NCBI GenBank assembly: GCA_005777315.1
Contig: SXMN01000195.1
Coordinates: 1 to 32,839, forward strand
Source of the DNA: Verrucomicrobiales bacterium
Lineage (GTDB): Bacteria; Verrucomicrobiota; Verrucomicrobiia; Limisphaerales; F1-12-MAGs170
Length of the DNA stretch: 32,839 nt
Direction: 5' to 3'
In this document: positions 2,987 through 31,382 of the stretch, one piece after another
Layout of the letters: every line of letters begins with the position of its first letter
Numbering within the stretch: position 1 is the first letter of the stretch
Position numbers and translations under genes: made by a program
The notes under the pieces: generated by a model
Databases searched by the model: none
The model's input: the letters and a program-made list of their open reading frames with translations, nothing else
What the model was told of the DNA's origin: nothing

Positions 2987-3101
2987 GGCAGGAGACTAAG
3001 CAGCGTGCGTAAATTGACAATGAATTTCAGGAGCCGTGCTGGCATTGCGGTGCCTCCAGAAGTTTTCGCTAACGAGAAGACCTCAAGACCGGGCGGACGG
3101 G

Positions 3102-3140
3102 GCGCGGAATTTATTGGTATCGTCCCAATCAATTCCGCGC
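3102..3140. repeat. Strong imperfect palindrome (hairpin)
   Basis: The arms GCGCGGAATT (3102-3111) and AATTCCGCGC (3131-3140) are perfectly complementary. They continue inward, after one mismatch, as ATTGG (3113-3117) and CCAAT (3125-3129). The loop is 7 nt. No T-run follows on either strand, so it is not a standard intrinsic terminator. It runs into a fragment of the 160-bp repeat family. Confidence 0.8.
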
Positions 3141-3170
3141 TCCATTACCGCCAACTCGTGAATGCACGGT
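3136..3170 (+). repeat. Fragment of the ~160-bp dispersed repeat
   Basis: About 35 bases here match the right end of the repeat copy at 8072-8236 (read on its minus strand) with only two differences, including the core CGTGAATGCACGG. The rest of the element is missing, so this looks like a decayed or truncated copy. Confidence 0.7.
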
Positions 3171-3386
3171 GGCATCGTGGTGCAACCGGAAGTTGCCCGT
3201 AAAGCGGGTGAGTTTGAAGGTAGAAAGGCTGGAAGCAACAGATTCAATTTCCTCACCACTCATGCCTGAAGAATACGTTCGACGCCGATTCCGGAAAAAC
3301 AGCGATTTCTGAACTTACTGAGGAGACCAAGCGATGGCCGATAATTCTCGGAGGTCTTGGAGGTGGCGCCGGCGCATTTGTTCAGC

Positions 3387-4595: not shown

Positions 4596-4796
4596 GCGTT
4601 TCGGATTCGGTTCTCAGGCAGAACACCGGATTGGGGCGAAGGTTTTAAGCAGGCACCGGCAGGGTTGCGATAGACACTTGAACACCTCCGGCGGGCTGAG
4701 GGCAGCCAAGGCAAGTTCATAGAGCACCCAATTTCTGCAAGGCTGATGCGTTGGGACCATAAACTTCATTCGCTGTAGGGTGCGCCTGTGCTTCAA

Positions 4797-4890
4797 GCGC
4801 AGAGTTTCGGAGGACACAGAGGCTCTCAGGAAGGAATGAAAGCAGTCTTTCTCTGTGTTCGCCAAATCCCCGTGCTGAAACTGGCGGTTC
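4797..4890 (-). repeat. Palindromic dispersed repeat, CAGAGAAAGACTG type
   Basis: Read on the minus strand, this segment aligns end to end with 20982-21074: both start with CCGCCAGTTTCAGCAC, share ACACAGAGAAAGACTG, and end with GTCCTCCGAAACTC. The two outer arms are inverted copies of each other, so each copy can fold into a long hairpin. It does not code for protein. Confidence 0.85.
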
Positions 4891-4930
4891 ATCGAACAGG
4901 AAAACCACCAACATTTGGACGCGCATCCGG

Positions 4931-5020
4931 ACCATGAATCTGAGCACCTCCTCTCCCGCCCTTCGCGCACCCTCTCCTTCATCCCGAGTGGAGGAAAGGG
5001 ATGGAGAGAGGAGGTGCCCC
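4931..5020 (+). repeat. Palindromic dispersed repeat, CTCTCCC type
   Basis: The segment starts ACCATGAATCTGAGCACCTC and ends GAGAGAGGAGGTGCC. The opposite strand of 12402-12507 carries nearly the same sequence. The ends CACCTCCTCTC and GAGAGGAGGTG pair perfectly, giving a hairpin. The small open frame across it is repeat sequence rather than a gene. Confidence 0.85.
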
Positions 5021-5086
5021 GGTTTATCCAGGGGCCACCTCGCTCAAACCACGCCTGTGGCTCCGTATTTGTATTGGCGCGAACGG

Positions 5087-7900: not shown

Positions 7901-8324
7901 AATTTGGATTGAACCCTGTTATTCTCGTTGTCGTGGCCTGCAATGAAAAAACCTGAAGTCCTCCATCGTTCACAATGAGTGAACGCGGGCGGACTTAACT
8001 CAGGATGGGAATGGCCACTCCGTTCTCGGTAGAGAGTCACCGTGGTAAATGCAAGTGGAAAGCCGGAACAACACCGTGCATTCACAAGTTGGCGGTAGTG
8101 GAGCGCGACTGTGCTGAAAGTCAGTCGCAGCAGTATCGCTGGCTCGCCCTCACGCCAAACCTGCTGCGGCTGGGGCTTCGCACACAACCGCGCTCCTGGC
8201 CGACAGCCAGGTTCACCGACAATTTGCGAATGCATTGGGAACAAGGAACAACATCACTTCGGGAAATCCACTTGCCATTTGAGATGCCGCGCCACATAAA
8301 TGCCCCACAATTTCTAATCACCTT
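7901..8324. other. Divergent intergenic region holding one 160-bp repeat
   Basis: This 424-bp gap separates the divergently transcribed metalloprotease and ferredoxin genes. A complete copy of the ~160-bp repeat fills 8072-8236. Open frames here are translations of the repeat. Promoters for both genes should lie in the flanks, but I cannot assign them. Confidence 0.6.
8072..8236 (-). repeat. ~160-bp dispersed repeat with terminal inverted repeats, copy 1
   Basis: The opposite strand of this segment aligns along its whole length with 12794-12953 and most of 31196-31347. Its ends are inverted copies: GTGCATTCACAAGTTGGCGG at one end and, on the other strand, ATGCATTCGCAAATTGTCGG. Inside are two small hairpins: CCTGGC/GCCAGG around TGTCG, and GCGACT/AGTCGC around the sequence CTTTCAGCA. 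No protein-coding capacity is evident. Confidence 0.9.
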
Positions 8325-12401: not shown

Positions 12402-12507
12402 TCCATGAACCAAAGCGCCTCCTCTCCCCTGCCCTCTCCTCCATTCTGAATGGAGGAGAGGGTGCCCGAAGGGCGGGAGAGGAGGTGCTCAGGTTCATGG
12501 TCCCGAT
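12402..12507 (-). repeat. Palindromic dispersed repeat, CTCTCCC type
   Basis: The minus strand starts GACCATGAACCTGAGCACCT and closely follows the plus strand of 4931-5020. A central hairpin is formed by CCTCTCCTCCATTC/GAATGGAGGAGAGG. The shared ATGAA(C/T)CTGAGCACC start gives similar short peptides in both places, but these are repeat translations. Confidence 0.85.
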
Positions 12508-12647
12508 GCGCGATCTCGAAATCGTGGAGGCCTCCCCATGAACCTCCTTCCCCATGAATTCAAAGCGTCCGTGAGCAGGTCCATTCGGAACAGGAAACTC
12601 TACAGGTTCTCCGCTGTTTTCGGTGAAAAGGATTTCGGGGATGCGTT

Positions 12648-12725
12648 GTCCCGTAGGGACATTTGACAATAGCCCAACGTTTCAACGTTGGGTTGTTGCG
12701 GGATGTCATCAAGTCCCGAAGGGAC
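12648..12725. repeat. Cluster of three short REP-like hairpins
   Basis: GTCCCGTAGGGAC (12648-12660), CCCAACGTTTCAACGTTGGG (12673-12692) and GTCCCGAAGGGAC (12713-12725) are three perfect palindromic stems in 78 bp, two of them near-identical. Spacing and form resemble REP/BIME clusters. Confidence 0.75.
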
Positions 12726-12793
12726 GGCTGAGGCACCGGAACAGCCTCCCGAGCCTGAAAGCAAGGTCAGGTTCAGTCGTCCCTTCGAGTCCA

Positions 12794-12953
12794 GTGCATC
12801 CGCAAGTTGTCGGTGAACTTGGCTGTCGGCCAGGAGCGCGGTTGTGTGCGAAGCACCAGCCGCAGCAGGTTTGGCGTGAGGACGAGCCATCGGTACTGCT
12901 GCGACTGGCTTTCAGCACAGTCGCGCATCCACCGACGGCTTGTGGATGCACCG
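12794..12953 (+). repeat. ~160-bp dispersed repeat with terminal inverted repeats, copy 2
   Basis: This is the clearest copy. It begins GTGCATCCGCAAGTTGTCGG and ends CCGACGGCTTGTGGATGCAC, an inverted repeat of about 20 bp with few mismatches. The central 110 bp matches the other copies, including the CCAGCCGCAGCAGGTTTGGC and TTTCAGCACAGTCGCGC stretches. Confidence 0.92.
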
Positions 12954-13020
12954 CTTCGGGACTCGTTCGACTTCCATTGGCTCCCGCGTCAAAGCGCCCA
13001 GCTATTGTTGGAAGTTCCCC

Positions 13021-14732: not shown

Positions 14733-14902
14733 TACTGAGGAGACCGTGGGTTAGGCTACGAATGATGGCGAGCGCCACAGATGCAGATGCGAGGCGCGAA
14801 CGCGGGAGGATGCCCGCAGCGGCCTCCGACCAAGTGAGCAACGAAGCATGTGCGTCTGTGCCGCCGTCAAGATTTGCAGCCTATCCCACGATCTCCTCAG
14901 TA
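14733..14902. repeat. ~170-bp palindromic element with long inverted arms (MITE-like)
   Basis: The left arm 14733-14790 and the complement of the right arm 14846-14902 align over about 58 nt with about 47 identities by hand. Both start TACTGAGGAGA and share CGTGGG, TAGGCT and CACAGA blocks. The ~55-nt centre is GC-rich. It ends 21 bp before the start codon of the next gene, so it will lie in that gene's leader or promoter. No transposase is encoded inside. Confidence 0.85.
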
Positions 14903-20825: not shown

Positions 20826-20981
20826 GGCGTGACCCTACGAAATCGCCATCTGAAGTTCGAGAAGGAAAACTGCTCTTGTGCCGCGGAGAGATTCGGAGGG
20901 GTTCAACGAACGTTCAATGGGAAGCATCCCAAAGTTCCTTGCGGCGCGATGGCGATCCCCGTCCATAACGCACTCCAGATA

Positions 20982-21074
20982 AACCGCCAGTTTCAGCACA
21001 GAGATTTGGAGGACACAGAGAAAGACTGTTCTCCTCCCCTTCGGAGACTCTGCGTCCTCCGAAACTCCGTGCTA
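20982..21074 (+). repeat. Palindromic dispersed repeat, CAGAGAAAGACTG type
   Basis: The arms 20995-21020 and 21048-21073 are complementary at about 22 of 26 positions (AGCACAGAGATTTGGAGGAC against the complement AGCACGGAGTTTCGGAGGAC). It is a second copy of 4797-4890 in the opposite orientation. It lies 31 bp beyond the flgL stop, where it could end or protect the flagellar transcript. Confidence 0.87.
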
Positions 21075-31124: not shown

Positions 31125-31195
31125 TATGGTTGATGGGGAAAGGATAGGGAGGTCCGCTATTGTGTCAAACGATCCATCGCCCGGAAGTCGGATTT

Positions 31196-31347
31196 CGGTG
31201 CATCCACAAGTTGTCGGTGAGCTTGGCTGGCGGCCCGGAGCTCGGTTGTGTGCGAAGCACCAGCCGCAGCAGGTTTGGCGTGACAGCGAGCTCACGATGC
31301 CGCTGCGACTGGCTTTCAGCACAGTCGCGCTCCACCGGATACACCGG
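31196..31347 (+). repeat. ~160-bp dispersed repeat, copy 3 (right terminus degraded)
   Basis: It begins CGGTGCATCCACAAGTTGTC and then follows copy 2 closely (shared GGTTGTGTGCGAAGCACCAG and CTGGCTTTCAGCACAGTCGC). After CGCTCCACCGG it diverges, so the inverted end seen in the other copies is not complete. It lies between apbE and the isomerase gene, upstream of apbE. Confidence 0.88.
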
Positions 31348-31382
31348 TCGGATTTTCAAATCCACTCCTCGGAACGTGCCTG

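Follow-up and report, generated by a model that had tools for sequence, protein, structure and literature searches.

The ~161-bp repeat that recurs along the window (the whole stretch of 32,839 nucleotides analysed here) is, we are confident, a non-autonomous DNA transposon (MITE), very probably moved by a transposase of the ISKra4 group, that inserts upstream of promoters. New here is the insertion rule of these MITEs: they tend to lie upstream of promoters, with 26-28 bp between the edge of the element and the -35 box. The repeat is short and non-coding, has terminal inverted repeats (TIRs) and a target-site duplication of fixed length (9 bp), occurs in at least 69 copies and has its ends in common with an autonomous element. 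Mobilisation of a MITE in trans had been among the readings offered in an earlier note on this DNA, and it is supported by these shared ends, duplications and copy number and by the transposase-bearing element with matching ends.

The element, called family A in the following, reads CRGTGCATCC...GGATGCACCG, with edges of the form CRGTGCATCCACAAGTTGTCGGTG on either side and TIRs of ~24 bp at both ends, where ~20 bp had first been described; its lack of a coding frame was rightly seen. The source genome is a Verrucomicrobiota draft (5.66 Mb, 367 contigs, 82% complete), and the genome search proposed at the time returned at least 69 copies, a lower bound gathered place by place across the draft, 60 of them full length and with a mean likeness of 90%. 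The terminal-repeat pattern matched 113 times genome-wide vs 0 times for a reversed control pattern. When the nine bases outside each family-A edge were compared, 25 of the 69 copies had no mismatch and 13 a single one (38/69 with at most one), against 0.2% of randomly re-paired flanks, which answers the question of a target-site duplication. By genes called with a simple codon-usage script, 64/69 copies are intergenic; the statement that all of them are thus held for most copies and not for every one. The three full copies of the window are real and 88-93% alike, with corrected edges. These copies and the associated features are as follows.

12792..12953, plus strand: family-A MITE copy; duplication CTTCGAGTC/CTTCGGGAC with 2 mismatches at 12783-12791 and 12954-12962
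8074..8237, minus strand: family-A MITE copy; perfect 9-bp duplication GGAACAACA at 8065-8073 and 8245-8253
31196..31346, plus strand: family-A MITE copy of 151 bp with shortened right end; perfect duplication GTCGGATTT at 31187-31195 and 31347-31355
3048..3169, minus strand: family-B element of 122 bp, internally deleted, ends as in family A; imperfect duplication TGGCATTG/TGGCATCG
31141..31168, minus strand: putative apbE promoter TTGACA-16-TATCCT (consensus match); -35 start and edge of the 31196 copy 27 bp apart
2993..3020, minus strand: putative ftsK promoter TTGTCA-16-TAGTCT (consensus match); -35 start and edge of the 3048 element 27 bp apart
8272..8300, plus strand: putative promoter TTGCCA-17-CATAAA of a divergent plus-strand gene (consensus match); duplication's outer edge 18 bp away
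12759..12764, minus strand: weak -35-like hexamer TTGCTT without a good -10 box, at the expected 27-bp offset, facing an Acido-Lenti-1 RNA

The stretch at 3136-3170, earlier taken for a terminal fragment of the same repeat, is in fact the right end of the complete family-B element. Judged from these consensus matches, the window copies are placed at likely promoters, namely those of ftsK, of apbE and of a divergent gene. In the last case seven extra base pairs (GGAACAA, 8238-8244) stand between the 8074-8237 element and the right copy of its duplication, and the promoter lies 34 bp from the element, the usual 27 lengthened by the 7 bp of extra duplication. The promoter cases at the 8074 and 12792 copies were picked by eye with the rule already in mind, which makes them weaker evidence. 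The only Rfam covariance-model match in the window is an Acido-Lenti-1 RNA (12647-12692, minus strand, 42.1 bits), which lies outside the elements and ~100 bp from the 12792 copy; this copy may sit upstream of the promoter of that RNA.

The spacing recurs across the genome. A sigma70-like promoter whose -35 box lies 26-28 bp from the edge is found on at least one side of 42 of the 69 copies, compared with ~10 expected from control offsets, and flanks aligned at the element edge show T-T at positions 28-29. Promoters were scored out of 12 against TTGACA-N16-18-TATAAT, with a softer threshold of at least 7/12, to which the 42 copies refer, and a strict one of at least 8/12. Under the latter, offset 27 collects 14 left and 7 right matches and offset 26 a further 6 and 3, so that 20/66 left and 10/63 right flanks have the -35 box at 26-27 bp vs ~0.7 expected (~0.4 per position). 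Seven other genomes of the order, with elements of different interior, supplied 134 flanks, and there too the only peak is at 26 (5) and 27 (15) over a background of ~0.2 or less per position, and 25 further copies from public MAG records peak, if modestly, at 26-27. About 40% of the family-A copies have no recognisable promoter at the offset. The distance breaks down into the 9-bp duplication and ~18 bp, together ~27 bp from edge to -35 box. Among 55 copies with both neighbours called, 30 stand in divergent and 2 in convergent gaps, with 8 and 12 expected by gap length; the background excludes gaps that hold elements, which lowers its divergent share. The position of copies near gene starts, which the earlier note had pointed out, is explained by this insertion upstream of promoters.

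Could the same positions have arisen by selection alone, with insertion anywhere and survival of those copies that left genes and promoters intact? Purifying selection would equally predict the intergenic majority, but it predicts a minimum distance, not a peak that is 1-2 bp wide, sits at 26-27 bp on either side and recurs in eight genomes, and convergent gaps, where insertion should be harmless, are nevertheless avoided. We therefore consider an origin by selection improbable and keep to insertion directed upstream of promoters.

A candidate for the enzyme is carried by a 2191-bp element (L195) in genome G192, which has family-A ends, repeats that begin with C and a perfect 9-bp duplication (GTCCGCAGC), and which has genes for a DruA-domain protein (PF14236, E 3.9e-20) and for a transposase of the ISKra4 family (NF033572, E 2.5e-37; frame broken). 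With this transposase as query, matches were obtained in 15/22 genomes. In close genomes, comprising our own (C331), G090, G013 (2195 bp) and G279, the transposase gene ends ~30 bp from the terminal repeat; the ends that enclose it in G084 and G200 (2278 bp) are of a more divergent type. The partner in our own genome is cut by the contig end, with one end visible. A transposase gene with matching ends, as the earlier note had proposed to look for, is thus at hand both in L195 and at C331. The long transposase frames (433-484 aa) cover ~400 of the 422 NF033572 positions with E 1e-52 or better, and aligned sequences show conserved D and E residues. Since the most complete frames score 177-185 bits and miss the curated NCBIfam ISKra4 cut-off of 205 bits, we call the enzyme ISKra4-like, or a divergent ISKra4. 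DruA matches stand beside the transposase at L195, L228, L229 and L233, and the 1.5-kb L230 gave none in the single frame tested; the PADLOC DruA model barely matches one of the DruA-domain proteins of the partners. The DruA domain is named after an anti-phage system.

The MITEs and the partner element have only their ends in common, and the end variants of IS and MITEs are concordant within G013 and within G192. The partner displays ISKra4-type traits (the 9-bp duplication, a terminal C on the repeats and insertion upstream of sigma70-like promoters); promoter-like matches at 27 bp flank L195 and L233 on each side, unlike the other partner copies. Taken together, the ends indicate that the family-A MITE is very probably moved by the partner transposon. 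Three other candidates were dismissed: none of the five DDE_Tnp_1 (PF01609) genes of the genome bears family-A ends, a 911-bp TIR pair in C286 is not an intact partner, and neither is a 1028-bp TIR pair in C109, where a decayed remnant of an ISKra4-like transposase adjoins a family-B element.

Both other readings raised in the earlier note fare poorly. Like REP and REPIN sequences, which would be moved by a RAYT (Y1 tyrosine) transposase, family A is palindromic, intergenic and present in many copies, and its interior hairpin occurs as a free-standing dispersed palindrome in other genomes; yet 9-bp duplications and long (~24-bp) terminal repeats are not RAYT-type features, and these same ends are found on a partner with a putative DDE transposase. 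REPINs are not known to have target-site duplications. As the ends and the duplications are typical of DDE transposition, a RAYT-driven origin is disfavoured to the point of being barely credible. A structured RNA or cis-regulatory leader would agree with the siting upstream of genes and with the strong predicted fold of family A (RNA z-score -8.4). Two small interior hairpins had been noted and are present, although as arms of a single hairpin that runs the length of the element. But the element lies upstream of the -35 box and hence outside the transcript of the neighbouring gene's own promoter, clear covariation is absent (3 double changes in 41 interior pairs), and the target duplications are the mark of an insertion. 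An RNA function as the origin of the repeat is accordingly very hard to uphold, and a MITE mobilised in trans stays the preferred reading.

We propose that a Mutator-type DDE transposase of the ISKra4 group, supplied by the ~2.2-kb element with the same TIRs, would recognise the MITE ends in trans and insert the MITE, leaving a 9-bp duplication behind. Insertion would be aimed at promoters and leave ~18 bp between the duplication and the -35 box downstream of it, and ~27 bp between the element itself and that box. From the extent of the RNA polymerase footprint on promoters, the element edge, at about position -62 from the transcription start, would come to lie near the upstream edge of that footprint, and the transposase might contact promoter-bound RNA polymerase. 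As the promoter would stay intact, insertions would be tolerated and would accumulate between genes, mostly divergent ones. It is conceivable, and we put it forward tentatively, that promoter-bound RNA polymerase steers the transposase, which would then integrate at the upstream edge of the complex; if so, the positions of the elements would show where promoters are active in uncultured Verrucomicrobiota, and the interchangeable hairpin interiors would be cassettes brought to the edges of promoters, where they might act as insulators. A related proposal, that copies were co-opted as regulatory or insulating modules and kept because the hairpin at the promoter edge alters flanking expression, would be in line with the strong hairpin, its fixed place at promoter edges and its reuse in two different transposon ends. 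The ~90% likeness among copies fits a recent spread without function, and we regard such co-option as unlikely on the sequences at hand.

Family B, of which the window holds a deleted copy, consists elsewhere in the genome of elements of ~193 bp (C23, C244, C109, C78) with family-A ends and another palindromic interior. Apart from the copies in the window and in C78, they mostly lack a recognisable duplication at the offsets tested. In C78 (own genome, L014 1294-1662) a family-B element directly adjoins a family-A element, and AGCAAGGAA flanks the B copy on both sides; repeated insertion at a single place relative to one promoter would produce such a side-by-side pair.

A search of relatives, also suggested earlier, found the same 161-bp family in the related MAG record SYMW01 and the same ends with other interiors in JACQWK01, VHDE01, CAINDV01 and CAIMTB01. 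The end sequence matched in 36/293 genomes of the order, many with only 1-4 matches and about a dozen with many. The hairpin arm GGAGCGCGGCTGTGT is by itself a dispersed palindrome in the order: genome G037 (L244 and further places) has 367 matches, many in facing pairs of ~129 bp, and transposon ends are nearly absent there. These matches are a free-standing palindrome family. In G001, of the same genus, a ~140-bp MITE (L107, L109, L111, L113, L115, L126, L133) has the same hairpin interior within other ends, CCGTGCCTATCCGGTTAGTTGCCAA; its 9-bp duplications resemble NNTTCAAAC and often end in TTCAAAC or similar, and the promoter spacing was not found in its flanks. Other ends, duplication type and lack of promoter spacing rule it out as the same transposon and make it a different family with the same cassette. 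Since the GGAGCGCGGCTGTGT hairpin is dispersed alone in G037 and inside different ends in G001, the interior looks like a reusable cassette, with the ends defining the transposon.

Prokaryotic Mutator-like transposases (p-MULT) are described as leaving 8-9 bp duplications and having a conserved terminal cytosine, and 13 ISs of their ISKra4 group as having promoters on both sides, with 13-17 bp taken as the distance, and nearly perfect inverted repeats (PMC3942029). Promoter-upstream targeting is already published for ISs of this group. The system described here agrees in the terminal C, the 9-bp duplications, the nearly perfect inverted repeats, the promoters on both sides and the nearly full-length match of the partner transposase to NF033572; it differs in that the transposase scores below the family cut-off and is accompanied by a DruA-domain gene, most copies are MITEs, and the Verrucomicrobiota host is absent from the published phylum list (PMC3942029). 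Measured from the repeat edge our spacing is 26-27 bp, and from the duplication 17-18 bp, as opposed to the published 13-17 bp, a difference that may only reflect how the duplication is counted. TnGBS, with ISLre2 (p-MULT 3), likewise keeps a constant distance from the -35 box when it inserts upstream, its duplicated sequence lying 15-16 bp away (PMC4701971) where the same measure here is 17-18; unlike our elements it has an 8-bp duplication and one orientation, is found in Firmicutes, and its transposase is only distantly similar to that of the partner (NF033529 E 3e-16). Correia elements (PMC10969869) are also short, non-coding and present in many copies, with TIRs and target duplications and often beside promoters; they carry promoters within, whereas the family-A MITE comes to lie a set distance upstream of a promoter already in place.

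In the literature searched, with subscription journals mostly outside it and thus weak evidence of novelty, we came upon no ISKra4-group MITEs, no DruA-bearing partner and no paper on ISKra4 in Verrucomicrobia; the terms ISKra4 and 'mite' do occur together in four papers. A review of prokaryotic MITEs from 2024 is silent on ISKra4 (PMC10969869). For the family-A MITEs there is now a candidate mobiliser and an insertion rule exact almost to the base, by which repeat positions turn into promoter predictions in uncultured bacteria and a coupling of transposase and RNA polymerase becomes testable. It also links a DruA-domain protein to an insertion sequence.

Further repeats are found in the window. 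A second palindromic repeat at 4920-5027 and 12403-12512, in opposite orientations and 85% alike over 108 bp, has inverted ends near CCATGAACC/GGTTCATGG, and 4796-4893 and 20978-21073 are an inverted pair of copies of a dispersed repeat (AGCGCAGAGTTTCGGAGGACACAGAG), 83-87% alike. An inverted repeat at 14733-14902 and 3314-3348, with ends TACTGAGGAGACC/GGTCTCCTCAGTA, may represent a further dispersed family, the same word being found in L069 and L070.
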